Shown here piece by piece: positions 9,640-22,184 of a stretch of DNA of 27,330 nucleotides. How positions within the stretch are numbered: position 1 is the stretch's first letter; the number at the start of each line of letters is the position of its first letter. The notes beneath the pieces are model-generated. The model was given only the letters and a program-made list of their open reading frames with translations. It was not told the origin of the DNA and ran no database searches. Origin of the DNA: a virus. Made by a program: the position numbers and the translations under genes. Where the stretch lies: the IMG/VR virus record IMGVR_UViG_3300020385_000046, positions 1 through 27,330 of that record, one strand, 5' to 3'.

Positions 9640-9825
9640 CCTTTGATGAATTTGTAGTATTAACAAAAAAACTTATAGGGGCGTTTTTGGCCACGGGAAA
9701 TTTTTTTTTGCTTTTGTTATCTATAGGTCGATTTGTCACCTCTGTAGGTTAGGGTAGTTAGACGTTTTTATCACGCCCCCCATAACGCAACAACGCCGCC
9801 CCTTAAAACACTGTCGTTTCACTGT
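9640..9825 (-). other. Long untranslated leader with GC-rich and poly-U stretches
   Basis: Between the promoter at 9826-9854 and the ATG at 9635 lie about 185 bases without a convincing gene. On the coding strand it has a G-rich start (AAGGGGCGGCG and ATGGGGGGCG), an A9-T3 stretch, and near the end ACGCCCCTATAAG followed by T7. The GGGGCG and CGCCCC could pair over a long distance just before the T7, as in a terminator or attenuator. No known riboswitch is recognised. Confidence 0.45.
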
Positions 9826-9854
9826 ATAATAGCAGAGGGACTAACTGATGTCAA
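9826..9854 (-). promoter_or_regulatory. Strong sigma-70 type early promoter
   Basis: Minus strand: perfect TTGACA at 9849-9854, a 17-base spacer, and TATTAT (5 of 6) at 9826-9831. It drives the leader and the gene at 9441-9635. Confidence 0.8.
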
Positions 9855-9871
9855 CCCCCCTGCACTAAGTA

Positions 9872-10156
9872 TCAAACAGCAGCAACTAGTTCATGATGGC
9901 ACATCCGATAAAGTTTGCTCTCGCTTACATCTGCCAGATCTTCTAGAGTGATATCATCTGGCATAGAATCACAGATGATTTCTGTTAACTGGAATTCATC
10001 GAGTTTCATCGCACGTTCCAGAATCTGTCGTGGGGTGCCGAACCCGTCAACGCTGGCAGCATAGATTTCTGAGATCGTGGCGTGGAGTCTGTCGCAGGCA
10101 TCGTCCAAGATCTCTAAAATGCGGCGGGTCTCTGCTGTGATGGTGATGGGGGTCAT
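9872..10156 (-). CDS. Hypothetical accessory protein, 94 residues
   Basis: Starts MTPITITAETRRILEILDDA and continues with alpha-helical, acidic sequence (LERAMKLDEFQLTEIICDSM, then DITLEDLADVSESKLYRM). No known motif was recognised. The start lies 15 bases after repeat copy 1. The GC-richer third positions differ slightly from neighbouring genes. It is the last gene of the repeat-bearing region on this side. Confidence 0.75.
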   Translation of the reverse strand: MTPITITAETRRILEILDDACDRLHATISEIYAASVDGFGTPRQILERAMKLDEFQLTEIICDSMPDDITLEDLADVSESKLYRMCHHELVAAV

Positions 10157-10171
10157 GCTGTTCAGTGCCTT

Positions 10172-10201
10172 ACACTATGGGGACGCTTTAGAGGGCCGGC
10201 C
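10172..10201 (-). repeat. Junction repeat, copy 1
   Basis: Coding strand: GGCCGGCCCT, CTAAAGCGT, CCCCATAGTGT, followed by AAGG. It lies 15 bases before the ATG at 10156, and the upstream gene stops 12 bases before it. Confidence 0.9.
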
Positions 10202-10212
10202 TTTAGTATCAC

Positions 10213-10467
10213 TCAAAGTTCTGTTAACATTTCATCGAGTTCCACTGTGTTTAACTGTGAATCATTCCACTTAACACCGTCAGGAGTTGTGCTACTAAAC
10301 TCCATCAACATGTGTGAGAGTGACTTATAACCGTGCTCAGCCCATCCTTTGGCGATATCATATAGTGCCTCATCATTACCCAACCAGAGTGCAACATTCC
10401 AGGTCTCGTAATTCGTCCAACCGTTATACGTGGTGTCGGTGAGATTCGTCTGAAAAGTTGTGGTCAT
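10213..10467 (-). CDS. Conserved phage protein with NYETWNVALWLGND motif
   Basis: 84 residues from ATG 10467: MTTTFQTNLTDTTYNGWTNY, then ETWNVALWLGNDEALYDIAK. The GWTNYETWNVALW block is a widespread phage/plasmid signature of an uncharacterised family, usually at the N-terminus as here. The longer reading beginning MIQAGPLNCSYS is an artefact: repeat copy 2 happens to be open in that frame. The start is 19 bases after the repeat. Function unknown. Confidence 0.85.
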   Translation of the reverse strand: MTTTFQTNLTDTTYNGWTNYETWNVALWLGNDEALYDIAKGWAEHGYKSLSHMLMEFSSTTPDGVKWNDSQLNTVELDEMLTEL

Positions 10468-10486
10468 AGAGGTTTGAGTGGTGCTT

Positions 10487-10516
10487 ACACTATAGGAACA
10501 GTTTAAAGGGCCGGCT
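10487..10516 (-). repeat. Junction repeat, copy 2
   Basis: Coding strand: AGCCGGCCCT, TTAAACTGT, TCCTATAGTGT, then AAGCACCACTCAA, a flank shared with copy 9 (AGCACCACTCAA). Confidence 0.92.
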
Positions 10517-10544
10517 TGTATCACCGACCCTGTGTGACTATCAA

Positions 10545-10652
10545 TTAGACTGCCGCAGTCTCCTCAACGAAAGTGTCAAGAACTGCCAGAAGTTCGTTAC
10601 CATTAGCGGCACGATTCATGAGTGACAGCATCAATTCAAGAGTCATAGTCAT
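10545..10652 (-). CDS. Very small protein, 35 residues
   Basis: Reads MTMTLELMLSLMNRAANGNE followed by LLAVLDTFVEETAAV. It is one of the smallest likely genes here. Support: it fills the interval between repeat copies 2 and 3 exactly, starts 15 bases after copy 3 like other genes, and forms a plausible two-helix sequence. I recall similar 35-40 residue proteins (LLxLMNxAxxGxELLAVLDTxVE) in cyanophages. Function unknown. Confidence 0.65.
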   Translation of the reverse strand: MTMTLELMLSLMNRAANGNELLAVLDTFVEETAAV

Positions 10653-10667
10653 TGGTGATTGGTATCT

Positions 10668-10697
10668 ACACTATAGGGACAATTTACAGGGCCGGCT
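10668..10697 (-). repeat. Junction repeat, copy 3
   Basis: Coding strand: AGCCGGCCCT, GTAAATTGT, CCCTATAGTGT. The preceding gene's TAA (10699) ends one base before it. Confidence 0.92.
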
Positions 10698-10698
10698 G

Positions 10699-10872
10699 TT
10701 ACCACTGCTCCGGAACTTGTAGGTCTTCCACGTATGCATTAACAGACTCATTTCCTTCCAATTCAAATAGGTCCTCCCAGCGAATCTGATGTGGATTAAA
10801 ATCTTCCATCACGTCAAGCTCTAGAGTGATGCGATACTTACCCTTTTGTGCGACACTATAAGAAACTGACAT
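10699..10872 (-). CDS. Small hypothetical protein, 57 residues
   Basis: Begins MSVSYSVAQKGKYRITLELD and ends VEDLQVPEQW. The beta-rich N-terminal half (KYRITLELDV) and acidic second half suggest a small folded domain. It is preceded by a consensus promoter at 10902-10930 and ends directly against repeat copy 3. Codons 3-7 (GTTTCTTATAGTGTC) resemble the TATAGT end of the junction repeat, so the start may derive from a decayed copy. Function unknown. Confidence 0.72.
   Translation of the reverse strand: MSVSYSVAQKGKYRITLELDVMEDFNPHQIRWEDLFELEGNESVNAYVEDLQVPEQW
10853..10872 (-). repeat. Possible decayed half-copy of the junction repeat
   Basis: The coding strand reads CAGTTTCTTATAGTGTCGC within the first codons of the 57-residue gene, close to CTGTTTCTATAGTGTAAGC of copy 7, but the GCCGGCC box is absent. 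Confidence 0.3.
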
Positions 10873-10901
10873 GATTCGGTGCTCTTGAGTGATGATGTTC
10901 T

Positions 10902-10930
10902 AGTATAGGATACCTAAGAGATATTGTCAA
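10902..10930 (-). promoter_or_regulatory. Sigma-70 type promoter
   Basis: Minus strand: perfect TTGACA (10925-10930), 17-base spacer, TATACT (10902-10907, 5 of 6). It faces the 57-residue gene, whose ATG is 29 bases beyond the -10. Confidence 0.75.
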
Positions 10931-11077
10931 TCTTCCAGAGAGTATTTATAAGAAATATTGGTATTTTTGTGTTCTTAATTCCTGGCAAAACTTATCAGCG
11001 CCCCCCTTGACATTTTTGCGAGTTGCTGTTAGACTGCTCGCTAAGATCACTACTCCTCAGCACATTAAAATACATAC

Positions 11078-11128
11078 TTATCCACAGAAATATACCTTTC
11101 TCCACAGATAATTGATACCTTTTCCACA
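11078..11128 (+). promoter_or_regulatory. Three DnaA-box-like sequences in tandem
   Basis: TTATCCACA (11078-11086) is a perfect DnaA box. TTCTCCACA (11098-11106) and TTTTCCACA (11120-11128) differ by one or two bases. All have the same orientation, spaced 20 and 22 bases apart, that is on the same helix face. Confidence 0.5.
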
Positions 11129-11214
11129 GACTTGTTAAAAACAGTATAAAATAGCAAACCATATTTATAATACCATTTTTAATTGATTTTTAATGAATAA
11201 AGGTATCAAAAGAT

Positions 11215-11244
11215 ACAAAAAAGGGAGGATAACCAGTCCTCCCT
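11215..11244 (-). terminator. Rho-independent terminator
   Basis: On the minus strand the stem AGGGAGGA/TCCTCCCT (11222-11229 and 11237-11244), loop of 7, is followed by T6 (11222-11217). It ends transcription arriving from the genes at 11343 and beyond. Confidence 0.82.
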
Positions 11245-11342
11245 CAGTATACCCACTTACTAACAATTAACCTTATTATATCCACTCAACTAGGGGTGAC
11301 TTTCAGTGTAGAGTGAGGCAAACCCTTTCCTCTCACTATCTC

Positions 11343-11522
11343 TCACATGCCATTCATAAACTCATGAAGTTCCTCATAGTATTGTTCTTCTGTATCGAAT
11401 TGCCTTCCATGAATAACACAAGGAAATTCTTTCTTTTGAAACATTGTTGATGTGACCTCGCAGTCTTGTTTGTCATAACCCATTTCGATTAGGGTGTTGA
11501 TGTAAGGATTGTTAGTTGTCAT
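11343..11522 (-). CDS. Small hypothetical protein, 59 residues
   Basis: Reads MTTNNPYINTLIEMGYDKQD, later FQKKEFPCVIHGRQFDTEEQ and YYEELHEFMNGM. The ATG is the last three bases of repeat copy 4 (TATAGTATG); the longer reading MGKLYDDRPCY runs through the repeat in its open frame and overlaps another gene, so it is rejected. The gene is last before the terminator at 11215-11244. Function unknown. Confidence 0.75.
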   Translation of the reverse strand: MTTNNPYINTLIEMGYDKQDCEVTSTMFQKKEFPCVIHGRQFDTEEQYYEELHEFMNGM

Positions 11523-11550
11523 ACTATAGGAACGCTTTACAGGGCCGGCT
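11521..11550 (-). repeat. Junction repeat, copy 4 (stop and start inside)
   Basis: Coding strand: AGCCGGCCCT, GTAAAGCGT, TCCTATAGTAT then G. It provides CCG-GCC-CTG-TAA, ending the upstream 55-residue protein as -PAL, and the ATG of the downstream gene. Confidence 0.94.
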
Positions 11551-11704
11551 GAGTGATAACATGGGCGGTCATCATACAATTTTCCCACATCAAATTGTAA
11601 CTATCAGCAACCCTTTGTGCAATCTCTTCAGTATCATAAATTCCCAGGGTTGTTGGGTCTTCAGAGTGTTCATCAAGTGCAATTACTTTGTGTGTCAGAA
11701 TCAT
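11537..11704 (-). CDS. Small hypothetical protein ending in repeat-encoded -PAL
   Basis: 55 residues: MILTHKVIALDEHSEDPTTL, GIYDTEEIAQRVADSYNLMW, then ENCMMTAHVITQPAL. The N-terminus looks like a beta-strand followed by a helix (TEEIAQRVADSYN), reminiscent of small YYxIxD-type phage proteins that describe a modified-residue pattern, but no family is certain. Its last three residues and stop are supplied by repeat copy 4. It follows the 59-residue gene at 11755-11934 after a 50-base gap with a T8 run. Confidence 0.72.
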   Translation of the reverse strand: MILTHKVIALDEHSEDPTTLGIYDTEEIAQRVADSYNLMWENCMMTAHVITQPAL

Positions 11705-11754
11705 AGTTTGGGTTGAAAAAAAATCGGCGTGGCGTATCTCGAAAAGACTCGGAA

Positions 11755-11934
11755 TTACTCGGAATCACTCTCAGTCAAACGATAAATTGTAGCAATCTTG
11801 GATTGAATTGAATCTGCAATATTTGCCTCTTCAGTACCATAATCTTGATAGTCATTCAGTGCGGAAGAGATAGCATCCCACTCAAGATCTGTAAAGAGTT
11901 GCTTGTAGATAACAGCAGAAGTTTTTTGGGACAT
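11755..11934 (-). CDS. Small hypothetical protein, 59 residues
   Basis: MSQKTSAVIYKQLFTDLEWD, AISSALNDYQDYGTEEANIA, DSIQSKIATIYRLTESDSE. Helical and acidic. Its ATG lies two bases after the stop of the preceding gene (11937). Just past its stop there is a direct repeat ACTCGGAATTACTCGGAATCAC on the plus strand overlapping the C-terminal codons. No function recognised. Confidence 0.72.
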   Translation of the reverse strand: MSQKTSAVIYKQLFTDLEWDAISSALNDYQDYGTEEANIADSIQSKIATIYRLTESDSE

Positions 11935-11936
11935 AA

Positions 11937-12095
11937 TCAGTTATAAGGAAAGAAAGAAGACTTAGTGGAATCAGTAGTGTAAGGAATGTTAAAATCCTCA
12001 CCGAACATCTGATAATAGAACTCACTGAAGATTGCGAAGTCATCAGGGGTTTCGTTGTTCCAGATTCTCAGGATTTCGTCGTAGGTGTCTCTCAT
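11937..12095 (-). CDS. Small hypothetical protein, 52 residues
   Basis: MRDTYDEILRIWNNETPDDF then AIFSEFYYQMFGEDFNIPYT. The ATG is fused to repeat copy 5 (TAATAGTATG). The upstream extension MISAGPVKCPNS is the open frame of the repeat and not a real start. It is followed two bases later by the next gene. Function unknown; acidic, aromatic-rich. Confidence 0.72.
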   Translation of the reverse strand: MRDTYDEILRIWNNETPDDFAIFSEFYYQMFGEDFNIPYTTDSTKSSFFPYN

Positions 12096-12123
12096 ACTAT
12101 TAGGACACTTTACAGGGCCGGCT
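12094..12123 (-). repeat. Junction repeat, copy 5 (start inside)
   Basis: Coding strand: AGCCGGCCCT, GTAAAGTGT, CCTAATAGTAT then G of the downstream ATG. Confidence 0.92.
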
Positions 12124-12131
12124 GATATCAC

Positions 12132-12260
12132 TCAACGATCATAGTTGTAATCAGGTTGCACAACATCTGCTAATGTGTTAAAGCTTTCAGCAGTGAATTG
12201 TCTTGCATTATCGCTATTCCAAAACAGAATGGCAATAACAACGAAGAGGGCAAATTTCAT
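12132..12260 (-). CDS. Small membrane protein, 42 residues
   Basis: From the ATG at 12260: MKFALFVVIAILFWNSDNAR then QFTAESFNTLADVVQPDYNYDR. Residues 3-14 are hydrophobic, a short transmembrane or signal-like segment, followed by LFWNSDNARQFTA, which I recall from small cyanophage membrane proteins starting at this methionine. A longer form from 12314 adds 18 basic residues (MIKALSKKRSSKELLSIH) and starts 12 bases after the upstream stop, so it cannot be excluded. Function unknown. Confidence 0.7.
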   Translation of the reverse strand: MKFALFVVIAILFWNSDNARQFTAESFNTLADVVQPDYNYDR

Positions 12261-12326
12261 GTGAATAGAAAGAAGTTCTTTAGAAGACCTTTTTTTAGAA
12301 AGTGCTTTAATCATTGAGTAATTACA

Positions 12327-12674
12327 TCAGGCAAAAACATAACCAGACTCGAAATCTTCAGTCTTGAAGATATTCATTCCATTGATACATCCAACGAATT
12401 TACGAACATACCAGACGAAATCTTTCTGGAATACATATTCGCCAGTAATACAAAACTCAGAGCAAAGTGCATTGAGTCTAGACTTAGTTGTTACTGATTG
12501 ATAACCGCCATCAAAGATTTGTAAATCATCATCTGTAACAATTGCAATTAAATTGTTATGAAGATAGACTTCTGAAGTGTTGCGAATAGGTGAATAAATT
12601 ACACGAGTATTTGCATTTGACCAGTCCTGATTGTTGTGAATAGCAGCACACATTTGGGATTCGATCTTACGCAT
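12327..12674 (-). CDS. Conserved phage protein MRKIESQMCAAIHN family, unknown function
   Basis: 115 residues: MRKIESQMCAAIHNNQDWSN, then NTRVIYSPIRNTSEVYLHNN and IVTDDDLQIFDGGYQSVTTKS, RLNALCSEFC. The pattern N-terminal RKIExxMCAAI, then two short beta repeats and DGGYQSxTTKSRLNAL, recurs in many phages and is uncharacterised. The C-terminal GMNIFKTEDFESGYVFA looks like a normal end. It begins 32 bases after repeat copy 6. Confidence that it is a gene is high; its role is unknown. Confidence 0.87.
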   Translation of the reverse strand: MRKIESQMCAAIHNNQDWSNANTRVIYSPIRNTSEVYLHNNLIAIVTDDDLQIFDGGYQSVTTKSRLNALCSEFCITGEYVFQKDFVWYVRKFVGCINGMNIFKTEDFESGYVFA

Positions 12675-12706
12675 GATTTTGGTTTTTTGAAGTGGGTTGG
12701 GTTCTT

Positions 12707-12736
12707 ACACTACTAGGACACTTTACAGGGCCGGCT
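12707..12736 (-). repeat. Junction repeat, copy 6
   Basis: Coding strand: AGCCGGCCCT, GTAAAGTGT, CCTAGTAGTGT then AAG. The upstream protein (12713-12931) ends inside it in the TAG frame, so its last residues SRPCKVS are repeat-encoded. Confidence 0.92.
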
Positions 12737-12931
12737 TACCATCTCCTCCCATTTTTCTACATTATAGAAATTAATAATCTCATCTTTAATCTCTTCCTCT
12801 GTTGCACTATCCATATCACCACGAACAACATCAAATAATAATCTTTCCATATCTTTATAATCCATATTATCCATAATCAACTGAGCATAATCATCTTTAA
12901 TTTTTGAAAGTTGTTCTTCGTTCAATATCAT
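12713..12931 (-). CDS. Small acidic phage protein whose C-terminus is encoded by the repeat
   Basis: 72 residues: MILNEEQLSKIKDDYAQLIM, DNMDYKDMERLLFDVVRGDM, DSATEEEIKDEIINFYNVEK. This matches a common cyanophage pattern, L(T/N)xxQLxxIxxDYAxLIxDxMD, usually ending soon after the last helix. Here the frame runs on through repeat copy 6 and stops at its TAG, adding SRPCKVS. The natural C-terminus may have been lost when the repeat was joined. Start follows the preceding stop by one base. Function unknown. Confidence 0.78.
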   Translation of the reverse strand: MILNEEQLSKIKDDYAQLIMDNMDYKDMERLLFDVVRGDMDSATEEEIKDEIINFYNVEKWEEMVSRPCKVS

Positions 12932-12932
12932 C

Positions 12933-13214
12933 TTAAACTAACTCCTGCTGATACTGCATCAATTGCTCCTCTACAACTTCATCAACTGCCTCTTGTATCA
13001 CCTGATAGATGTAATCATTGTCTCCTACATCATCAAAGATACGTCTAACCAGTGCAGGATCTTCTACATTGTTCTGATAATCAGTGTTGCCATCTTCATC
13101 TTTCAAATGACAATCATTCTTAGTATAGATCCATGCGGCACATTCTGCATCTTCTCCCTGTTCTTTGATCATAGATGATACTCGGTCTTGAAGTTGCTTG
13201 AGAGTGTAGTTCAT
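12933..13214 (-). CDS. Acidic conserved cyanophage protein, 93 residues
   Basis: MNYTLKQLQDRVSSMIKEQG, EDAECAAWIYTKNDCHLKDE, then VRRIFDDVGDNDYIYQVIQE and AVDEVVEEQLMQYQQELV. Acidic and helical. The AAWIYTK/DC block resembles uncharacterised phage proteins I have seen in cyanomyoviruses. It is followed one base after its stop by the next gene. Upstream lies a GTGAGTGAG-type simple repeat (13218-13233). Function unknown. Confidence 0.8.
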   Translation of the reverse strand: MNYTLKQLQDRVSSMIKEQGEDAECAAWIYTKNDCHLKDEDGNTDYQNNVEDPALVRRIFDDVGDNDYIYQVIQEAVDEVVEEQLMQYQQELV

Positions 13215-13241
13215 GATTAGAGTGAGTGAGGTGAGTGAGTG

Positions 13242-13442
13242 TTAGTTAGTGGGGAAGTTCTTACAGACTGCATCACATAAGACACGAATTAAATCTTCCA
13301 TATCATCTTCATTAATTTTATCGTCCAAATATTGTGATGTTATAATACAATCAATATCCTCCATTAGTTGTTCTCTTTGTGATAGCATTTCGAGTTGATT
13401 GTTCATTTGAAGAGTGTGAAGATAGGACTTGATTAGTGACAT
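13242..13442 (-). CDS. Small hypothetical protein, 66 residues
   Basis: MSLIKSYLHTLQMNNQLEML, SQREQLMEDIDCIITSQYLD, DKINEDDMEDLIRVLCDAVC. Helical and acidic. The start at 13442 is 3 bases after the preceding stop; MNNQLEML at 13406 is an alternative. Function unknown. Confidence 0.7.
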   Translation of the reverse strand: MSLIKSYLHTLQMNNQLEMLSQREQLMEDIDCIITSQYLDDKINEDDMEDLIRVLCDAVCKNFPTN

Positions 13443-13445
13443 TAA

Positions 13446-13718
13446 TTAACCCACACATGCCATCGGAGTATATTCTTCACGAGGCATTTTGTCAAGATTA
13501 AAGTCAGTTACCTCAGCACCGTTAGCAATACGAGCGTGCCAATCGTACTTTGCTTCAATACCAAGGATTGTGCTGTATGATTTCATTCCATTAACACGGA
13601 AAGTAACACGACGAATGAAACGACGAATAGTAACTTTCATTCCTTTGATCTCATCTGCCTCAGCAATAAATGCCTCGGGAAAATAATCAACGATTGTGGC
13701 AGAGTTAGTGACTTGCAT
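13446..13718 (-). CDS. Conserved hypothetical protein, 90 residues
   Basis: MQVTNSATIVDYFPEAFIAE, ADEIKGMKVTIRRFIRRVTF, RVNGMKSYSTILGIEAKYDW, ending MPREEYTPMACVG. A basic beta segment (KVTIRRFIRRVTFRV) is flanked by acidic parts. It starts 22 bases after repeat copy 7, the same distance class as copies 1-3. First gene of a run (13718 to 12713) of four tightly spaced genes. Function unknown. Confidence 0.78.
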   Translation of the reverse strand: MQVTNSATIVDYFPEAFIAEADEIKGMKVTIRRFIRRVTFRVNGMKSYSTILGIEAKYDWHARIANGAEVTDFNLDKMPREEYTPMACVG

Positions 13719-13740
13719 TGGTTGTGGGTTAGAAGTGCTT

Positions 13741-13770
13741 ACACTATAGAAACAGTTTACAGGGCCGGCT
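13741..13770 (-). repeat. Junction repeat, copy 7 (stop inside)
   Basis: Coding strand: AGCCGGCCCT, GTAAACTGT, TTCTATAGTGT then AAGCAC. It supplies CCG-GCC-CTG-TAA, ending the upstream membrane protein as -KPAL. Confidence 0.94.
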
Positions 13771-13921
13771 TTAGTAACTCCCGACAGTTTGATACAATCG
13801 TAGGATCAACTTTGCAAAGTTTTAACATCCGGGCATCTTGCATCTTTGTGATAGCATTGATACCGCTGATACCAATGTTTGCACCAATAATGATAACAAT
13901 AGCTGCTAGAACGATTCTCAT
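13757..13921 (-). CDS. Small membrane-anchored protein, 54 residues, ending in -PAL
   Basis: MRIVLAAIVIIIGANIGISG then INAITKMQDARMLKLCKVDP and TIVSNCRELLKPAL. Residues 3-19 form a hydrophobic signal or transmembrane segment; the two cysteines at about 36 and 46 may pair in the periplasm. Its ATG overlaps the TGA of the previous gene (ATGA). The last four residues and stop come from repeat copy 7. Function unknown. Confidence 0.72.
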   Translation of the reverse strand: MRIVLAAIVIIIGANIGISGINAITKMQDARMLKLCKVDPTIVSNCRELLKPAL

Positions 13922-14109
13922 GATTCAAGAAGAATAACTTCGTAAGATGTAAAGTCAGGATAGCATTTCTCTACCCATTTTGATAACTTATTATTCTGTG
14001 ATTTAATCCCCTTATGTGTTGTTGGACGTGTGGGCATTGTCTTCAGAAAAGATGTATGTCCCCCTTCTCTTGTAACTTGAATTGAATAAGTTGCTGTTGT
14101 AGTTTGCAT
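13918..14109 (-). CDS. Small hypothetical protein, 63 residues
   Basis: MQTTTATYSIQVTREGGHTS, FLKTMPTRPTTHKGIKSQNN, KLSKWVEKCYPDFTSYEVIL. The ATG at 14109 follows GGAGG in the last codons of the upstream gene, so translation is coupled; a TTG one codon upstream is less likely. Stop overlaps the next start (ATGA). A short beta N-terminus and a helix KLSKWVEKCYPDF are visible. Function unknown. Confidence 0.72.
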   Translation of the reverse strand: MQTTTATYSIQVTREGGHTSFLKTMPTRPTTHKGIKSQNNKLSKWVEKCYPDFTSYEVILLES

Positions 14110-14112
14110 CAA

Positions 14113-14355
14113 TCAACCTCCGTAGACTTCTTCTGCCATAGGAGTATCGCTCATGCGATCAAGATGATCCCACAGTGTATTCTTTTCACCGAACATTTCC
14201 ACGAAAAGATCAATGTTCTGACGATCATATTGTGATTTAACTGCCATGATCTCAGTCTCAATCCATGCGAGTTCCATACGCTTTTGGTCAAGTTTTTTGC
14301 GAAGTTCGTACAACTTTTGGTTGCGTTCGGTGAGAGTCATTTTAGTTTCGTTCAT
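14113..14355 (-). CDS. Coiled-coil hypothetical protein, 80 residues
   Basis: MNETKMTLTERNQKLYELRK, KLDQKRMELAWIETEIMAVK, SQYDRQNIDLFVEMFGEKNT. Residues about 7-50 form a heptad-like helix suited to a coiled coil. The ATG at 14355 is the end of repeat copy 8 (TATAGTATG); MTLTERN at 14340 is an alternative. Last codons contain the GGAGG used by the next gene. Function unknown. Confidence 0.77.
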   Translation of the reverse strand: MNETKMTLTERNQKLYELRKKLDQKRMELAWIETEIMAVKSQYDRQNIDLFVEMFGEKNTLWDHLDRMSDTPMAEEVYGG

Positions 14356-14383
14356 ACTATAGGGACACTTTAGAAGGCCGGCT
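14354..14383 (-). repeat. Junction repeat, copy 8 (start inside)
   Basis: Coding strand: AGCCGGCCTT, CTAAAGTGT, CCCTATAGTAT then G. The upstream TAA (14383-14385) shares its last base with the repeat. Confidence 0.93.
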
Positions 14384-14526
14384 TATATGAACTTGGCATT
14401 GACACTAACAACCGTTGCGGTAGGATTTCGTGCAAGTGCTGTTTTTTTAGCGTCATTATGATCCCTGGCAATAACTTGTTCGGAGAAGACTTGACCAGCA
14501 ATGTAGAGTTTAACTTCCCATTTCAT
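14383..14526 (-). CDS. Small conserved cyanophage protein MKWEVKLYIAGQVF family
   Basis: 47 residues: MKWEVKLYIAGQVFSEQVIA, RDHNDAKKTALARNPTATVV, SVNAKFI. The beta-strand/helix/beta-strand layout and the RDHNDAKKTALARNP block are typical of a small family that I recall in many T4-like cyanophages, usually next to a membrane protein as here. It overlaps that gene's stop (ATGA). The stop touches repeat copy 8. Function unknown. Confidence 0.8.
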   Translation of the reverse strand: MKWEVKLYIAGQVFSEQVIARDHNDAKKTALARNPTATVVSVNAKFI

Positions 14527-14741
14527 AGTGGTGAAAGCAATTTAGTAGATGAGATGATTAATAGAAACGTGAGCATGATTACCACGTCCCATGATTTTGT
14601 TCTGATGAAGAATGGCACTGAGATAGCATCACCAACAAATTGCATAATCACTCCTAATGATAGATTCACATGTAGGATGATGAAATATGCAGTGACCACA
14701 AGAAATGATCCTATGATTCTGCCAGCAGTGTCAATCTTCAT
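14523..14741 (-). CDS. Small conserved cyanophage membrane protein, 72 residues
   Basis: MKIDTAGRIIGSFLVVTAYF, IILHVNLSLGVIMQFVGDAI, SVPFFIRTKSWDVVIMLTFL, ending SSTKLLSPL. Two hydrophobic stretches at about 9-34 and 53-64 flank FVGDAISVPFFIRTKSWD, a conserved loop in the cyanophage family I recall. Likely in the host inner or thylakoid membrane. Translationally coupled to the MKWEV gene. Function unknown. Confidence 0.82.
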   Translation of the reverse strand: MKIDTAGRIIGSFLVVTAYFIILHVNLSLGVIMQFVGDAISVPFFIRTKSWDVVIMLTFLLIISSTKLLSPL

Positions 14742-14746
14742 CGTAA

Positions 14747-14890
14747 TTAAAAAATGTACTCTGTAGATTCAGGATGTTGTTGATGCTCTGATTCAGGATG
14801 TTCCTGTTGTTCAGATTCAGGATCTGGTGAGTTCCAAAAGTCTTCCCAATCTTTTGGTGAGTTTGTTACATCTTTGATGTTATGATTCAT
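14747..14890 (-). CDS. Small acidic protein with repeats of HPES/PESE
   Basis: 47 residues: MNHNIKDVTNSPKDWEDFWN, SPDPESEQQEHPESEHQQHP, ESTEYIF. Residues 22-42 are a degenerate tandem repeat (PESEQQEH, PESEHQQH, PEST), encoded by repeats of about 27 bases around GATTCAGGATGTT on the plus strand. It probably is intrinsically disordered. Start 5 bases after the upstream stop, 5 bases to the next gene. Function unknown. Confidence 0.65.
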   Translation of the reverse strand: MNHNIKDVTNSPKDWEDFWNSPDPESEQQEHPESEHQQHPESTEYIF

Positions 14891-14895
14891 TTTAG

Positions 14896-15252
14896 TCAGA
14901 GATAAAGAAAGGAACCGTAAGGATCACAAATTTGAGGATTATTTGCCAATTGAGTGATCAGATAGCGGACACCTTTTGCAGGTGCTTTGTAACTGGCAGG
15001 TTTGTAACATTCACCAGTGTTCTTATCAACGAACATCCAGCAGCCTCGTGTGGTATCTTTAACACCCTCACGATCAAGTCTTTGCCAGACTTTGATATAT
15101 TTGCGACCTTCTTCTACCTCCAGTTGATGATAGGTAGACCGACCAGATTCAATCGAATCTACTTTCCATTGATTGTTCAGCACTTCGATAAGTGCTTCAG
15201 TTAGGAATTGTGGTTTAGTTTGAGTGATGGTCATTGATTGAGTGGTGCTCAT
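14896..15252 (-). CDS. Conserved phage protein with CWMFVDKNTGECYKPASYKAP motif
   Basis: 118 residues from the repeat-fused ATG at 15252 (MSTTQSMTITQ); MTITQTKPQF at 15234 is an alternative start. The beta-rich body contains YHQLEVEEGRKYIKVWQRLD and RGCWMFVDKNTGECYKPASY followed by KAPAKGVRYL, a block widespread in phage proteins of unknown function. The two cysteines in CWMFVDKNTGEC are conserved in what I recall. The extension MGAGPLKCPYS is the repeat in its open frame and is rejected. Confidence 0.84.
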   Translation of the reverse strand: MSTTQSMTITQTKPQFLTEALIEVLNNQWKVDSIESGRSTYHQLEVEEGRKYIKVWQRLDREGVKDTTRGCWMFVDKNTGECYKPASYKAPAKGVRYLITQLANNPQICDPYGSFLYL

Positions 15253-15280
15253 ACTATAGGGACACTTTAGAGGGCCGGCT
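15251..15280 (-). repeat. Junction repeat, copy 9 (stop and start inside)
   Basis: Coding strand: AGCCGGCCCT, CTAAAGTGT, CCCTATAGTAT then G. It gives CCG-GCC-CTC-TAA to the ligase-like gene (ending -WEPAL) and the ATG of the next gene. Its flank AGCACCACTCAA also follows copy 2. Confidence 0.95.
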
Positions 15281-16172
15281 CCCAACCCTTTGCCATGTTG
15301 AAATTTGCATGACTAAAAGATTCACGATTCACGAGTTTATACATTCCAATATCATTAGTGCGAACATATCCTTCACCATCACATTCATCAAGACCAATGT
15401 AAGCATCAGGACCATTATTGTTACAAGTAAACAACATGTCCTCCTTGATTGACTTGACAAGAGACCACAAACGCAATACGTTTACGTCTATGTCATTCTC
15501 ACTTGCGATTGCATCTTGTACTATGTCATCAATAGGGAAACCTTCACGAATACAGGCATTTAGTTGTTGCTTGACTCGCTTAGCTTTCTTGTCATCCATG
15601 AACTCACAGAGAGTAGACATCTGGCGAGCAAATGAAACAATGCCACTCCAATCCTCATCCAGTTGCTCACACTTAGGAGCAATGAATAGACAATGATCCG
15701 TACTCTTAGGGCACAGAATCATAGGAGATGCAATAGCATCACGCAGATCAGTCTTTGTCACATAGATTGTATGTGGTGCTACGATTATATCCTGTTGAAT
15801 AGTCTCTTGAAAAACATAAGTGATCGTATTGGGGCAAAAAGTACAGTTACCACCGTACCCAATAAAATCACCTTGAATAATCCCAGCGAAATCAGGAAGG
15901 TTATCAAAGCAATGGTGTAATATATCAGCAACATTGCCAACATGATTAGCATCAATCTCTTCATGAGAGTGATTGATTTTGATAAGTTTTTTGTTGAAAA
16001 CACTTTTAGTTCCTACAAAGAATGTGCCAGTGGCAGGATCAGTACCCCACACAATCGCAGGAGCACCATCTATTTTGAGAGAAAGATGACTGTCCTCGGT
16101 AAACCAATCCAAGACAGACAAGTCACCCGTAAGAATAGTGTCTTCGGGATGTTCTAGGTGAGTGTTCTTCAT
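15267..16172 (-). CDS. RNA/DNA ligase-like nucleotidyltransferase
   Basis: 301 residues. Motif I is at 33-36 in LSLKIDGAPAIVWG, with Lys33 the likely adenylated residue (KxDG). A motif III-like part lies in the FVGTKSVFNK/GDFIGYGG region. Near the end, EGYV (267-270) and a motif V-like YKLVNR (278-283, Lys279) complete the ligase set. This would join nucleic acid ends with ATP through a covalent AMP intermediate. The start MKNTHLEHPEDTILTGDLSVL fits a phage family with an HLEHPED N-terminus. The start is the ATG of repeat copy 10 and the end (-EPAL) comes from copy 9, so the whole gene sits between two repeats as a single cassette. Substrate (RNA or DNA) is unknown. Confidence 0.85.
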   Translation of the reverse strand: MKNTHLEHPEDTILTGDLSVLDWFTEDSHLSLKIDGAPAIVWGTDPATGTFFVGTKSVFNKKLIKINHSHEEIDANHVGNVADILHHCFDNLPDFAGIIQGDFIGYGGNCTFCPNTITYVFQETIQQDIIVAPHTIYVTKTDLRDAIASPMILCPKSTDHCLFIAPKCEQLDEDWSGIVSFARQMSTLCEFMDDKKAKRVKQQLNACIREGFPIDDIVQDAIASENDIDVNVLRLWSLVKSIKEDMLFTCNNNGPDAYIGLDECDGEGYVRTNDIGMYKLVNRESFSHANFNMAKGWEPAL

Positions 16173-16200
16173 ACTACAGAGACAGTTTAGAGGGCCGGCT
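16171..16200 (-). repeat. Junction repeat, copy 10 (start inside)
   Basis: Coding strand: AGCCGGCCCT, CTAAACTGT, CTCTGTAGTAT then G. The upstream TAA (16201-16203) abuts it directly. Confidence 0.92.
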
Positions 16201-16446
16201 TTAGACAGGGAGTTTTGCTAGTGACTTTCCTTTACTATGCTTTGTGATAAAGTTAATTGCTGATTTACGATTGCGACAGGTTTTGAGTTGCTTTCCCTTA
16301 TGAATAATCACGAGTTGTGTATCACTACCTCCCAAAGGTACAGCAGCATATAAATTGGGATCTTCCCAATTTTTTCCAACTAAGAAACCAGTTTCTTTAA
16401 GTTGAGAATCTAAAATGTAAGGATTTGGTGGTTGTTTTAGTTTCAT
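16201..16446 (-). CDS. Small conserved phage protein MKLKQPPNPYIL, 81 residues
   Basis: MKLKQPPNPYILDSQLKETG, FLVGKNWEDPNLYAAVPLGG, SDTQLVIIHKGKQLKTCRNR, KSAINFITKHSKGKSLAKLPV. Basic with a central beta part (NLYAAVPLGGSDTQLVIIHKG) and a C-terminal helix. I recall the family from cyanophages. ATGA overlap with the upstream gene shows coupling. Function unknown. Confidence 0.8.
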   Translation of the reverse strand: MKLKQPPNPYILDSQLKETGFLVGKNWEDPNLYAAVPLGGSDTQLVIIHKGKQLKTCRNRKSAINFITKHSKGKSLAKLPV

Positions 16447-16646
16447 TTCCAGTTCTCCATAAACTCTTCAAATGTGTAACCTTCACCTGTTGATGTTTCT
16501 TCAATCAACTGTTCTAACGTATATTCTTGAAGTTCTTCACGGTATTCTTCTGTTGTAGGATCATTTTCAGGATCAAAATCATCATGGCAGAGATAGTCCC
16601 ACTCTGCACATAATGCATCGATAATATCTGCTCTTGTATAATTCAT
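16443..16646 (-). CDS. Acidic small protein, 67 residues
   Basis: MNYTRADIIDALCAEWDYLC, HDDFDPENDPTTEEYREELQ, EYTLEQLIEETSTGEGYTFE. Strongly acidic, helical. Overlaps both neighbours by ATGA, so it is co-translated with the helicase upstream and the basic 81-residue protein downstream. The acidic/basic pair could interact, but this is inference only. Function unknown. Confidence 0.78.
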   Translation of the reverse strand: MNYTRADIIDALCAEWDYLCHDDFDPENDPTTEEYREELQEYTLEQLIEETSTGEGYTFEEFMENWK

Positions 16647-17833
16647 CGCTTAATCTCACTGATAGCGGGTTGACCTTGATTGAACACTACATCAACAACT
16701 GCCTGAACTTTCTTGGCAGTGCTGATACCAACTCTGTCATAAGTTGGGATGCAGACTAAACCAAATGTCTTCTCAGTGCTACCCAGACGGATCACACGAC
16801 CGATAGACTGACTGATACCAATGTAGTCCATGTTCCGCATGAAAATAACAGCTTCAAGACCACTTACGTTGATACCTTCAGACAGAATGCTATGGTGGAT
16901 GACAACAAACTTCTTGCCATCTTCCTTGCCCCACTCATTCAGAGTGTCAAAGAATACGTCACGATTGACTTTCTTACCGTCGATGATTGCACCTGTCTTG
17001 GATGTAATCATCATCCAAGAGTATCCACGCTCCTTGAGTTGTAGGCAAAAGTCTGATTGTGAGACAAGACCCATAATTTGCTTCGTAGAACGAGCACAGA
17101 TCAAAGTCTTGTCGATATTGTTGTCATCGATAGTTTCGATGAGGTTGTCTCCATCCTCAGCATACATAACTTTTCTTCCCTTGATGATTGGCAGTTGTTT
17201 AACAACCACTTTTGGAGGAAGAATGTACCCTTCATCAACAAGGCGAGGAGCAGGAACATTACATAAAACTTGACCATAGACACTCCAATTCATTCCAGGT
17301 TTAGATGCAGCAAGAGAATGTTTGGGAGTTGCTGTAAAGAAATAGCAACGATTTGCATTCTCTGCAAAATACTTAGTCGCAGGGAAGAAGTTACGCTGAA
17401 CGCTATTGTGTGCTTCATCAAAATAGATGTTATTCACCTCAATATCTGCCTCCATGACACGATGGAGAGAATGATAAGAGGTAAAGATAATGCAGTTCTC
17501 ACCTGCTGTGCGAGCAGTGTTAGCAAAGATATGAATGTTATCTGCTTTCGTTGTAGAATAGTGAGGTGTCTCACCACTATGAACGTGCATTACATGTGTG
17601 TAAGTTGTATCAATCAACTCAAGGAATTCACTGCAAAGCTGCTCTGCCAACAGAATACGTGGAGCAACAACAACAGTCGTCATTCCGTTGTCAATATACT
17701 TACAATTCTCTATAACATCCTGAATCATACAGATAGTTTTGCCACCACCTGTAGGCACAATAATTTGACCTTTGTCATATGCAAGCATACGATCAACAAT
17801 GTCCGTTTGATGCTTACGAAGAGAAATAGTCAC
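16643..17833 (-). CDS. Superfamily 2 DNA/RNA helicase (UvsW-like class)
   Basis: 396 residues with all main SF2 motifs: Q-like SLRKHQ near 4-9, Walker A PTGGGKT 27-33, motif II DEAH 139-142, motif III TATP 167-170, and motif VI QSIGRVIRLGS near 336. This is an ATP-driven translocase of the RecG/UvsW/DEXD type. T4 UvsW is longer (about 500), so this may be an accessory helicase and not the UvsW orthologue. The start is a GTG with no obvious ribosome-binding site. A TTTACA-17-TATTAT promoter wound into a hairpin (17859-17894) stands 26 bases upstream. Confidence 0.9.
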   Translation of the reverse strand: MTISLRKHQTDIVDRMLAYDKGQIIVPTGGGKTICMIQDVIENCKYIDNGMTTVVVAPRILLAEQLCSEFLELIDTTYTHVMHVHSGETPHYSTTKADNIHIFANTARTAGENCIIFTSYHSLHRVMEADIEVNNIYFDEAHNSVQRNFFPATKYFAENANRCYFFTATPKHSLAASKPGMNWSVYGQVLCNVPAPRLVDEGYILPPKVVVKQLPIIKGRKVMYAEDGDNLIETIDDNNIDKTLICARSTKQIMGLVSQSDFCLQLKERGYSWMMITSKTGAIIDGKKVNRDVFFDTLNEWGKEDGKKFVVIHHSILSEGINVSGLEAVIFMRNMDYIGISQSIGRVIRLGSTEKTFGLVCIPTYDRVGISTAKKVQAVVDVVFNQGQPAISEIKR

Positions 17834-17858
17834 AGTGGGTGGTTTGTACCAGAATAAT

Positions 17859-17887
17859 ATAATAGCACCCTTACAGGCGATTGTAAA
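17859..17887 (-). promoter_or_regulatory. Sigma-70 type promoter overlapping a hairpin
   Basis: Minus strand: TTTACA (17882-17887, 5 of 6), exactly 17 bases, TATTAT (17859-17864, 5 of 6). The -35 and the whole spacer lie in the hairpin 17864-17894. Confidence 0.68.
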
Positions 17888-17894
17888 GGGTGCT
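17864..17894 (-). terminator. Hairpin overlapping the helicase promoter, possible terminator
   Basis: Arms AGCACCCTTACA (17864-17875) and TGTAAAGGGTGCT (17882-17894) pair with a single bulged base. On the minus strand it is followed by ATTATATTATT, not a clean U-run, so termination would be weak. Confidence 0.55.
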
Positions 17895-17904
17895 GAGGAC
17901 GCTT

Positions 17905-17934
17905 ACATTATAGGAACGCTTTAGAGGGCCGGCC
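17905..17934 (-). repeat. Junction repeat, copy 11
   Basis: Coding strand: GGCCGGCCCT, CTAAAGCGT, TCCTATAATGT then AAGC. The upstream TAG is one base away; the downstream GTG start is 71 bases away, with a promoter-hairpin between. Confidence 0.92.
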
Positions 17935-17935
17935 T

Positions 17936-18493
17936 CTATCTGGGTTCGTATTCCTTCACCGGTTTGTTAATTCCTTTCACTAAATGGCGACGGAGTTTCT
18001 CACCCTGCCTACGAATTTGTCTTCTTTCTTCTCTACTTTTACCTGATGCAGATTGTGGTTTATAATCAGGACTTACTTTCTTTGCTGACTTTTTGGAGAG
18101 CAACTTACTTGCCTGCTTTTCAATATCTTTAGATGTTGTCTTGGTTGTTGTTGATGCACCACCAGACTTTCTTGCTGCTGCTCTTGCTTGTGCTGCTTTC
18201 TTTCTTTCAGCCTTTGCTGCTGCTAACTGTTTCTCTCTTGCAGAACCTCTGTCCTGTGTTGGTTGCTGTTCTTTTTCAGATCTTTGACGCTGTTGACCAA
18301 TATCTTTTCTTGGTTTGTAATCCTTAGCGGGGACCATCTTGCCCCCGCCAACAGCTTTCATCCGTCTCTTTTCAGGTTCTGTTTTCTTACGCTCAGCACC
18401 GATTCTTCCGCCCTCACCAGTTCTCCTAATTTGAGAACGTCCTTGGACTTCTTTATCGTATACTTCAGTAATAAACTCCTGAAAAGTTTTCAT
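17936..18493 (-). CDS. Basic internal (capsid-packaged) protein with T4-type capsid-targeting sequence
   Basis: 185 residues. The N-terminus MKTFQEFITEVYD closely matches the capsid-targeting sequence of T4 internal proteins (MKTYQEFIAEA), which the gp21 protease cuts after the Glu. The predicted cut is after ITE (residue 10). The mature part is rich in K, R, Q and A, with AREKQLAAAKAERKKAAQARAA helices, and basic and disordered, as expected for a protein injected with, or condensing, DNA. A CTAAATAA late-promoter-like sequence lies upstream (18517-18524). The targeting role is known for T4; here it is inference from the motif. Confidence 0.72.
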   Translation of the reverse strand: MKTFQEFITEVYDKEVQGRSQIRRTGEGGRIGAERKKTEPEKRRMKAVGGGKMVPAKDYKPRKDIGQQRQRSEKEQQPTQDRGSAREKQLAAAKAERKKAAQARAAARKSGGASTTTKTTSKDIEKQASKLLSKKSAKKVSPDYKPQSASGKSREERRQIRRQGEKLRRHLVKGINKPVKEYEPR

Positions 18494-18516
18494 CTGAGAA
18501 AAGATCTTACCTCCTT

Positions 18517-18524
18517 TTATTTAG
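18517..18524 (-). promoter_or_regulatory. Candidate late promoter for the internal protein
   Basis: Coding strand CTAAATAA, like the cyanophage late motif CTAAATA, overlapping the TAA of the previous gene and followed by AAGGAGG. It lies 24 bases before the ATG at 18493. Confidence 0.42.
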
Positions 18525-18696
18525 ATGCTCCAGATTTATAAACCATACCATTCTCATACATCTCATTGATACGATCGTGCCTTAGTTTTTTGAGTTCATC
18601 AAATCTCTTTTGTTGATCATTAGTGTATGTAAAAGATTGCCTTCTCCAAGAATCACGAAGGTCACGAAGTTGATACAGGATTTCAGATGGTTTCAT
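18517..18696 (-). CDS. Small helical protein, 59 residues
   Basis: MKPSEILYQLRDLRDSWRRQ, SFTYTNDQQKRFDELKKLRH, DRINEMYENGMVYKSGASK. The whole is helical and basic, with RFDELKKLRHDRI. The ATG at 18696 is used instead of the TTG at 18708 because it overlaps the stop of the upstream gene (TGATATG). I recall similar small proteins from cyanophages. Function unknown. Confidence 0.75.
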   Translation of the reverse strand: MKPSEILYQLRDLRDSWRRQSFTYTNDQQKRFDELKKLRHDRINEMYENGMVYKSGASK

Positions 18697-18697
18697 A

Positions 18698-18847
18698 TCA
18701 ATAATCAATGTTAGATTTGAGGTACTCGTTCATGTCAAATTTTTGTTCATCTTGAATTAAATCTTCAAGATTTTCATAAACATGATCAAAATTGACCAGT
18801 TCTTCAACTTGTTGCTCAGTCAGGTAATAATCCATTGAGTTTGTCAT
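18698..18847 (-). CDS. Small acidic protein, 49 residues
   Basis: MTNSMDYYLTEQQVEELVNF, DHVYENLEDLIQDEQKFDMN, EYLKSNIDY. Highly acidic and helical. The ATG immediately follows repeat copy 12 and the stop is two bases before the next ATG. Probably encoded in one unit with 18517 and the internal protein 17936. Function unknown. Confidence 0.7.
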   Translation of the reverse strand: MTNSMDYYLTEQQVEELVNFDHVYENLEDLIQDEQKFDMNEYLKSNIDY

Positions 18848-18848
18848 T

Positions 18849-18878
18849 ACATTAGTGGAACACTTTAGAAGGCCGGCT
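18849..18878 (-). repeat. Junction repeat, copy 12
   Basis: Coding strand: AGCCGGCCTT, CTAAAGTGT, TCCACTAATGT then AATG. The previous gene's TAA (18878-18880) shares its last base with the repeat; the next ATG starts one base after it. Confidence 0.9.
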
Positions 18879-19021
18879 TACTTAACTAAAATTTGAAAGT
18901 CTTTACAACCCTCTTGTTTCTTAACGGTTTCCCAAAAAATTGCATCATCAATTTTTATAAAAGTTGCTGTGTGCTGTGCATAACCCTTTTTCTTGGGTTT
19001 TAGATACTTCACTTGGTACAT
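18878..19021 (-). CDS. Small conserved cyanophage protein MYQVKYLKPKKKGY
   Basis: 47 residues: MYQVKYLKPKKKGYAQHTAT, FIKIDDAIFWETVKKQEGCK, DFQILVK. The pattern beta-strand, helix with DDAIFWE, then GCKDFQI is a small family I recall in cyanophages, so this frame is likely real. It overlaps the 78-residue membrane-protein frame by 74 bases. Function unknown. Confidence 0.72.
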   Translation of the reverse strand: MYQVKYLKPKKKGYAQHTATFIKIDDAIFWETVKKQEGCKDFQILVK

Positions 19022-19184
19022 CATTCCAGTGTCTCAATACTCCAGATATAATAAAAAAGTTAGTGACCATGTAGCTAACAAATATAATGGTGCGTATGCC
19101 AGCAACATAATTATCGTAAGGTTTTGTTTTGTCATCGCTGAAGCTTCCTATTGCATATTTCCATATCTCCCAGAGTTTACTCAT
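18948..19184 (-). CDS. Small conserved cyanophage membrane protein (MSKLWEIWKYAIGSFSDD)
   Basis: 78 residues: MSKLWEIWKYAIGSFSDDKT, KPYDNYVAGIRTIIFVSYMV, TNFFIISGVLRHWNDVPSEV. One clear transmembrane segment at about 31-49, then RHWNDVP. The N-terminal two-thirds matches a cyanophage membrane-protein family I recall; the end (SKTQEKGLCTAHSNFYKN) overlaps the MYQVK gene and may be a read-on caused by a lost stop. It overlaps the stop of the oxygenase gene by 8 bases. Confidence 0.7.
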   Translation of the reverse strand: MSKLWEIWKYAIGSFSDDKTKPYDNYVAGIRTIIFVSYMVTNFFIISGVLRHWNDVPSEVSKTQEKGLCTAHSNFYKN

Positions 19185-19650
19185 ATTTTATTGCTAAAGT
19201 AAATCTCCACCTGTCTCTAAATGAAGTTGCTCTGTGCAACAGTCGAGCATCAAACATCATTATTCTATTAGGAAGTGGTACAACTCCCTGTATATTTCCT
19301 TGCACATATACCTGTGTTTCTCCACCATCATTTGGTTGCCAGTTGTATTGTGGATAGTATAAAAATGTTACACCACTATCACCATCTGTATGAAAGTAAG
19401 GAATTTCTCTAGGAGCAAAACAATTGATATACATCCTGTAAAATTTTAATCCTTCAGGCACCAATGGTTGTGTCTTGGCATAAAACAATTCATGAACATA
19501 TTGATTGTTTGGAATATCATGTGTCACCCCTGTAGGTGGTGTGTCACCATCATCAGATTCACCATATCTGTATTTTGCTCCCTCACAATAATCTAAGACA
19601 TGATTTTGCTCCTCTTTTGTTAAAAAATCATCGTAAATTCTAAGCATCAT
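19177..19650 (-). CDS. 2OG-Fe(II) dioxygenase (prolyl-hydroxylase-like)
   Basis: 157 residues. The iron site is visible: H87-x-D89 in YFHTDGDSG, distal H139 in LLHRATSF, and an Arg (147 or 149) in FRDRWRFTL for 2-oxoglutarate. The GGETQVYV strand before the distal His fits the double-stranded beta-helix fold. Substrate unknown; cyanophages carry several such enzymes. The ATGATG at 19650/19647 lies inside the end of the preceding oxygenase gene and has GGGAG just upstream. Two oxygenase genes overlapping by 11 bases suggest joint action. Confidence 0.87.
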   Translation of the reverse strand: MMLRIYDDFLTKEEQNHVLDYCEGAKYRYGESDDGDTPPTGVTHDIPNNQYVHELFYAKTQPLVPEGLKFYRMYINCFAPREIPYFHTDGDSGVTFLYYPQYNWQPNDGGETQVYVQGNIQGVVPLPNRIMMFDARLLHRATSFRDRWRFTLAIKYE

Positions 19651-20260
19651 CGCCGCTCCCATAACTCATTACAGATAAATTAAATGAAATTGTAACTCTT
19701 GGTTTATCTGGTGTTGGTGGGTAAGATTTAACTTCATGCTCCAAATAGGATGGAAACATAAGCAAATCACCTTCAATCACTGGTGGATTATATTTTTCAG
19801 AATAGTGTGTAGATTTCATATCAACAGAGTGATACCTAGTAATAGCTAATGGATCAGAAAATGTTAGAGGTGAATGAATTTCAGGATCAAAGGATAAAAA
19901 GTGAACACACGCAAAATGAGTAGGGTTAATAGGATCACCTACATGATTGTGTGATTCTTGATATTCACCATTACTATAACTGTTGTACCAGATTTCATCA
20001 ATCTCTACAGTAAATTTATCATCAAAAAAGTGTTTGATGACATTAAAATATTGCCTCTTTAGTTCGTGATTCTCTGACAAATCTTTACTTATCTTTTCAT
20101 TTTCAAAAGATGTTGTAATATTTGTTGTCAACCATCCTTCAGGAGATTGACAATCATCTTTGGTCTTTTCGACTAAAGGCATGACCGTACCTTTCAATTT
20201 TTCATTATCTTCTACATGCCCTTTGTAGTAAGATATTGGATAAATTTCAATTCTTGACAT
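19640..20260 (-). CDS. 2OG-Fe(II) oxygenase family protein
   Basis: 206 residues. The middle has YNSYSNGEYQESHNHVGDP with a His-x-His at 104/106, FACVHFLSFDPE, and EGDLLMFPSYLEHEVKSYPP with His175, then RVTISFNLS with Arg188. This is the pattern of the phage-associated 2OG oxygenases of the TIGR02466 kind, in which the first metal ligands are His-x-His/Asp. The substrate is unknown. It is the first of the oxygenase pair, followed by the 157-residue enzyme. Confidence 0.82.
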   Translation of the reverse strand: MSRIEIYPISYYKGHVEDNEKLKGTVMPLVEKTKDDCQSPEGWLTTNITTSFENEKISKDLSENHELKRQYFNVIKHFFDDKFTVEIDEIWYNSYSNGEYQESHNHVGDPINPTHFACVHFLSFDPEIHSPLTFSDPLAITRYHSVDMKSTHYSEKYNPPVIEGDLLMFPSYLEHEVKSYPPTPDKPRVTISFNLSVMSYGSGDDA

Positions 20261-20263
20261 AAC

Positions 20264-21007: not shown

Positions 21008-21157
21008 TTAGATAAACTCCGCAATGTAATAGTCAACAGTGACTTCTAACTTTGCTGCTTCAATTTCACACTCGGCAATGAAATTGTCAATCATACTGTC
21101 AACTTTACAATTTTCATCCAAACCAAAAATTTCTTTTGAATCTTCGTAACTAATCAT
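21008..21157 (-). CDS. Small acidic protein, 49 residues
   Basis: MISYEDSKEIFGLDENCKVD, SMIDNFIAECEIEAAKLEVT, VDYYIAEFI. Acidic, helical. Starts in the ATGA overlap with the previous gene and ends exactly where the next ATG follows. Function unknown. Confidence 0.7.
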   Translation of the reverse strand: MISYEDSKEIFGLDENCKVDSMIDNFIAECEIEAAKLEVTVDYYIAEFI

Positions 21158-21703: not shown

Positions 21704-21704
21704 C

Positions 21705-22180: not shown

Positions 22181-22184
22181 GTGA

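Follow-up and report, generated by a model that had tools for sequence, protein, structure and literature searches.

A 27.3-kb virus record (IMG/VR IMGVR_UViG_3300020385_000046, all 27,330 nucleotides of which are referred to below as the window), part of a T4-like marine cyanophage, carries 16 intergenic copies of a short repeat, all in a single orientation and spanning positions 10174–27195. From sequence comparison we interpret this repeat, with roughly even confidence, as a start-associated regulatory element, most likely a short-leader promoter under the control of a phage factor. It consists of a conserved core and, directly upstream of it, a tail of 11–15 nt that is uniform within a genome and different between genomes, with at least 20 types in all. 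The element is real and widespread in marine cyanomyoviruses, and its genome-wide tail code is a new feature. In the first-pass annotation the repeat had been read as a stop-start linker, encoding the end of one protein and the start of the next and thereby making each gene a cassette which homologous recombination can swap; this reading is incomplete because it omits the genome-specific tail, the upstream terminators and the fixed start spacing, all of which point to gene expression.

Scans of IMG/VR yielded 534 distinct copies on 102 contigs, only contigs with at least three copies each being counted, and the repeat is present besides in the isolates S-SM2 and SynMITS9220M01, the Synechococcus phages which, followed by Bellamy, are the nearest named relatives of the window. 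The coding-strand consensus of the 534 copies comprises the tail and then the core YAAAGTGTCCCTATAGTRTRA, a tandem direct repeat of CTAWAGTGT with an 11-bp period; with positions counted from the first T of TAAAG, a purine stands at +12 and +17 in 95–98% of copies (95% at +12). The family is co-oriented, the exceptions being a few weak opposite-strand matches on 9 contigs, and each of six large genomes has one cluster of approximately 10–16 kb with 7–12 co-oriented copies, outside which only a few matches with three mismatches and one with two were found. The plus-strand core CTTACACTATAGGGACRCTTTA also stands at gene junctions in S-SM2 and SynMITS9220M01, where it is followed by CGACCCCCCTTT and GAGGTGAGTAACATT, as against GAGGGCCGGC in the window. 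The word GGCCGG, all 16 occurrences of which in the window lie inside repeat copies, is therefore one tail type and not a defining part of the repeat, the family core being shared. The exact repeat pattern of the window gave 16 forward matches, none in reverse and none in a backward control, while a family-wide weight matrix scored 14 window copies at 18–43 bits and the 11 copies of S-SM2 at 15–37 bits, shuffled S-SM2 sequence scoring no higher than 8 bits. Phage S-B43 gave a single match with no further copy within 12 kb, and Bellamy, a relative without the repeat, gave 0 copies in 30 kb.

The uniformity of the tail is pronounced: two tail hexamers from one contig match with at most one mismatch in 97.3% of pairs, two from different contigs in 16.5%. 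At orthologous junctions, where both flanking genes are homologous, 159 pairs with different tails were found (144 with a stricter cut), and their cores differ by 2.4 of 21 bases, compared with 3.15 between junctions within a genome; the core is therefore passed on together with its junction, whereas the tail goes with the genome and is overwritten in place. In a tree of DUF6267 proteins, which have homologues in 467 phage records and one member in the window (301 aa, 15267–16172, minus strand; PF19782, E=7.9e-80), the 18 tail types require 29 changes of label. Contigs L110, L142, L125, L129 and L127, with DUF6267 genes that are close relatives of one another, show five tails. A few contigs, e.g., L164, have one foreign tail beside a gene more than 90% identical to that of a phage with that tail, as expected shortly after import. 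Such mosaic contigs, together with tail uniformity and rapid switching, would also suit a DNA site for a phage nuclease or an exclusion or homing factor which spares its own tail and cuts others, so that repair homogenises tails and spreads cassettes, and an S-SM2 gene annotated as a restriction enzyme does lie between two repeats. We nevertheless consider this explanation quite improbable, as it accounts neither for the strict co-orientation nor for the start-codon spacing and terminators described below, and a nuclease gene common to the family was not demonstrated.

The distance to the start codon takes one of two states. In 211 copies the last bases of the repeat form an ATG at +17, the frame being open in 195 of them and the start codon lying exactly at +17 in 192; a further 174 copies end in GTA, with the first ATG mostly at +32 to +41 and rarely in between. 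That the last bases of the repeat serve as the ATG of the next gene, as had been proposed for seven copies in the window, was confirmed at +17 for six: copy 4 (11523–11550; ATG at 11520–11522), copy 5 (12096–12123; ATG at 12093–12095, gene 11937–12095), copy 8 (14356–14383; gene 14113–14355), copy 9 (15253–15280; ATG at 15250–15252, opening a protein with the N-terminus MSTTQ), copy 10 (16173–16200; ATG of the DUF6267 gene at 16170–16172) and copy 14 (24885–24912; gene 24675–24884). The seventh, the degenerate copy 16 (27168–27195), does have an ATG but it is displaced by 2 nt to +15, and the 70-aa open reading frame that it would begin is doubtful because it overlaps a better gene. The ATG at +17 is a genuine start, since MKNTH is also where DUF6267 homologues begin when they have no repeat.

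Evidence on transcription comes from what precedes the repeats. Coding-strand intrinsic terminators end at most 60 nt upstream of a repeat in 12 of 94 cases (3.5 expected, p=2e-4; none in a backward control), mostly 23–29 nt before TAAAG and in several tail families. Between the T-run of the terminator and the start codon, with AUG at +17 or about +33, there is only tail and core. Unless these genes are reached by read-through, their promoter would have to lie within the repeat and initiate at approximately +12 to +17. The motif YAAAGT at positions 0–5 and the purine at +12 fit such a promoter. We infer a mechanism in which the core would be read by RNA polymerase, as machinery common to all hosts, YAAAGT serving as a −10-like box for initiation near +12, and the tail would be read by a phage-encoded specificity factor. 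The resulting transcripts would reach their AUG after about 5 nt in the ATG state or 20–29 nt in the GTA state, with no Shine-Dalgarno sequence, and the two start-codon positions (leaders of about 5 nt or at least 20 nt) would fit leaderless-like and leadered messages. The factor would switch from lineage to lineage, pulling all sites of a genome along with it, while recombination between identical repeats, cleanly adding or removing single genes, would be a by-product.

Several observations weigh against this interpretation. No −35 consensus was found in the 534 copies, which seldom match sigma-70 promoters, and good sigma-70 promoters are present nearby, apart from the repeats; in the sigma-70 scan of the window, among the matches listed, only copy 15 overlaps a minus-strand site, TTGACA-N17-TAAAGT, and does so by chance. 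At position 0 of the core 19% of copies have a C, a start site at +12 does not account for the strong conservation of TAGT at +13–16, and at least 7 of the 12 terminators precede DUF6267 orthologues and are thus not fully independent. No trans-acting factor was identified. Two other kinds of promoter were considered. A sigma-70 promoter with TATAGT (+11–16) as its −10 box was rejected for ATG-state copies, as its transcripts would begin around +23, within the conserved ATG or beyond it, and the MKNTH starts are conserved without the repeat. The opposite strand of the core contains ACACTATAGGGA, the core of T7-family promoters, and antisense T7-type promoters are suggested by this resemblance alone. 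Their direction would be opposite to that of the genes, the region that gives T7 promoters their specificity shows no conservation, copies differ freely in TATA and GGG, and a T7-type polymerase is not known to be encoded by T4-like cyanophages, which together make this reading extremely improbable.

A more serious alternative, though still an unlikely one, is that the repeat acts in RNA, in translation initiation or the processing of polycistronic messages, so that each stop would be followed by a start region that is rich in A and C, free of structure and without a Shine-Dalgarno sequence, the tail being bound by a phage RNA-binding protein. The fixed spacing to the start codon would be natural in such an element, as would the G-poor stretch after the core and the repeat-derived N-termini (e.g., MSTTQ and MNTTQ) that unrelated proteins have in common. 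Shine-Dalgarno sequences are indeed absent from repeat-linked genes (0% and 4% below −5 kcal/mol, compared with 13% in random sequence), and some copies, e.g., on contig L193, are found just downstream of sigma-70-like promoters. A common RNA hairpin was however rejected (mean fold Z of −0.3 overall and +1.0 for the GGCCGG family), core pairing being confined to GTCCCC-type tails, as on contigs L143 and L186, where the tail GGGGAC pairs with the core GUCCC to give a hairpin of high stability (mean −13.8 kcal/mol, Z −2.9) that other tails do not form. A complementary guide RNA to the tail was likewise rejected, GGGGGGTCG having no reverse-strand match in the S-SM2 genome, and the intrinsic terminators directly upstream would leave intact repeats untranscribed unless they were read through.

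As regards the other end of the linker, four upstream proteins in the window do end in -PAL at the TAA of a repeat, as claimed: those of genes 11537–11704 (at copy 4), 13757–13921 (at copy 7, 13743–13770), 15267–16172 (at copy 9) and 26109–26618 (at copy 15, 26095–26122, the second half of which is weak). The second-frame TAG of copy 6 (12709–12736) terminates the 72-aa protein of 12713–12931, and the gene described as ligase-like, i.e., the DUF6267 gene, runs from a start in copy 10 to a stop in copy 9. Homologues with -PAL ends in the absence of flanking repeats, which would have marked these ends as ancestral, were looked for and do not occur: DUF6267 proteins end in ...W(E/Q)PAL before the stop with the GGCCGG tail and in ...MAQRGVA before the stop with the S-SM2 tail, whereas without the GGCCGG tail they end in ...KSW or ...FANV before the stop, or in ...LTN. 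The -PAL ends are repeat-derived, because homologues without the tail end otherwise and those of S-SM2 derive from its own tail. The broader claim, that the repeat encodes the end of one protein, does not hold for the family. Only 27 of 481 upstream genes (6%) end at the core TAA and 7 at the TAG, most of the former having the stop-free tails of the GGCCGG and GACCCC families, while most upstream genes stop 13–24 nt before the core, just ahead of the tail. The upstream stop is an incidental feature of the repeat, a by-product of stop-free tails.

Gene gain and loss at repeats could be seen directly. Contig L043, which over 6.5 kb matches the window at 99.7% identity, has an extra 78-aa gene between two repeats (with no sequence homologue in the phage collection), while copy 12 of the window (18851–18878) is a chimera with the left flank of one of these L043 repeats and the right flank of the other. 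Seven further contig-pair comparisons showed the same arrangement, with single inserted blocks of 306–767 bp, so that the gene-order comparison suggested in the first-pass annotation does reveal, for L043 and several other pairs, single genes gained or lost precisely, at exact boundaries formed by chimeric repeats. Such chimeras are what would be expected if the repeat were a linker making each gene exchangeable, as are its stops in two frames combined with a third-frame ATG, one-sided breakpoints of 93% identity or higher and, of 101 simple indels remaining after de-duplication, the 19 that are flanked by repeats on both sides. Altogether 43 of the 101 indels are at a repeat, a share only modestly higher than the 26% of window junctions which have one, and this signal is inconsistent with the gene-order table, in which window-gene junctions with a repeat are broken in 32% of cases compared with 43% of those without. 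Faster turnover at repeat junctions was thus not found, and cassette swapping as a function is not borne out. In addition, the stop role is limited to a minority of copies, some copies follow non-coding DNA, tRNA or terminators, where there is no gene to stop, and pure recombination does not explain uniform tails and their in-place replacement. Of the linker proposal, therefore, the -PAL ends, ATG starts and clean gene turnover stand, but not the stop role or the cassette function, and we give little credence to the proposal as an account of what the repeat is for. The repeats permit clean exchange; that exchange is their purpose is unsupported.

The closest functional parallel is with the SAS/ESAS elements of cluster K mycobacteriophages, which are likewise multi-copy, co-oriented short elements just upstream of the start codons of non-structural genes, sometimes hold the upstream stop, are rare or absent in host genomes and have a conserved part with an adjoining part (ESAS, proposed to bear a promoter) whose consensus differs between subclusters. 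The cyanophage repeat is also short, asymmetric, co-oriented and immediately upstream of start codons. Hosts and sequence are, however, unrelated: SAS GGGATAGGAGCCC has a ribosome-binding motif, whereas the core YAAAGTGTCCCTATAGT has no Shine-Dalgarno sequence; ESAS is a 17-bp inverted repeat with −35 and −10 boxes, whereas the cyanophage core is a direct tandem repeat; and ESAS differs at three positions between subclusters, whereas cyanophage tails are wholly different, in at least 20 types. The promoter-early stem-loops (PeSLs) reportedly described by Arbiol in 2010 and Comeau in 2014 in the T4-type phages RB49 and phi1 (as cited in PMC4503421) are comparable as dispersed intergenic repeats in the hyperplastic region of T4-like phages, recombination between units of which adds or removes genes, and some cyanophage copies come after a terminator too. 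The PeSL unit has a strong sigma-70 promoter (−35 and −10) and a stem-loop or terminator, whereas cyanophage copies lack the sigma-70 consensus, mostly lack the stem-loop (the copies in the window included, with terminators preceding approximately 12 copies overall) and have a genome-specific box. The repeat works like SAS/ESAS, and like PeSLs for gene turnover, but neither its sequence nor its defining parts place it in either family. The literature searched contained no description of the element, the PeSL papers lying outside that search.

In T7, T3, K11 and SP6, where polymerase and promoter have co-evolved, a shared core is likewise paired with a specificity box that does not vary within a phage but does between phages; the analogy is an evolutionary one only, as machinery and orientation differ. 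T4 middle promoters, which combine a MotA box with a −10 box, resemble the favoured promoter interpretation in having a host-type −10-like box, a box for a phage factor upstream and many sites per genome, but the sequence and position of the box differ. Cyanomyoviruses have neither motA nor asi (PMC2984593). Promoters have been demonstrated by experiment within the intergenic repeats of halovirus HF2, which keep their positions across the genus (PMC8707807), but this is an archaeal virus with AT-rich promoter motifs, and the abstract mentions no genome-specific tail.

In the window the repeats are in a small-gene region adjoining gp25/purM, and every gene examined, including the gp6- and gp25-like ones, is on the minus strand, which is also the coding strand of all 16 copies. 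The remaining copies are copy 1 (10174–10201, a core of 17 nt with an 11-nt tail), copy 2 (10489–10516), copy 3 (10670–10697), copy 11 (17907–17934) and copy 13 (21676–21703). Directly downstream of copy 11 in the coding sense, at 17887–17859 and before a UvsW-like helicase, a separate hairpin overlaps a sigma-70 promoter (TTTACA-N17-TATTAT); this is a PeSL-like unit, and an analogous hairpin in S-SM2 has TTGACA in its loop. The tail of copy 14 and an inverted CCGGCCCTC just past it form a near-perfect palindrome, GAGGGCCGGCTTGATATCAAACCGGCCCTC (24902–24931), the sole such repeat-associated hairpin in the window. A perfect sigma-70 promoter, TTGACA-N16-TATAAT, is present on the minus strand at 26633–26660, between genes 26109–26618 and 26634–27083. 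The DUF6267 protein contains a KIDGAP motif, KxDG-like as in nucleotidyltransferases and ligases. Rfam gave no match across 9800–27330.

A family of host regulatory motifs was rejected as a source of the repeat, as scanning 84,980 prokaryote genomes for an exact 18-mer returned only 2 matches, one of them on a Prochlorococcus single-cell contig with a recombinase. This contig (L213; AG-402-I20, QCHY01000012.1, 3262–6299) has one core copy with a GGGGGGACGTA tail and a serine-recombinase reading frame, as well as an apparent homologue of the 138-aa secreted protein of the window (21705–22121), and is possibly a phage-derived island.

For the control of early and middle genes in marine T4-like cyanophages, which do not have the T4 middle regulators (PMC2984593), the repeat is a concrete, testable candidate. 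Its common core and genome-specific box offer a means of sorting contigs into regulatory groups and present a case of coordinated evolution between about ten sites and a presumed trans-acting factor, while in a variable region rich in genes the repeat explains both the clean single-gene turnover and the odd protein ends that derive from it. We tentatively suggest that these MotA-less phages may share a dispersed promoter network with a genome-wide "password", in which the same core would be combined with a tail code drawn from a set of 20 or more, every code having a matching, fast-switching phage factor, and imported genes would be re-coded in place to the code of the recipient. If this is true, phages would exchange genes freely, each import being re-coded to the recipient's tail.

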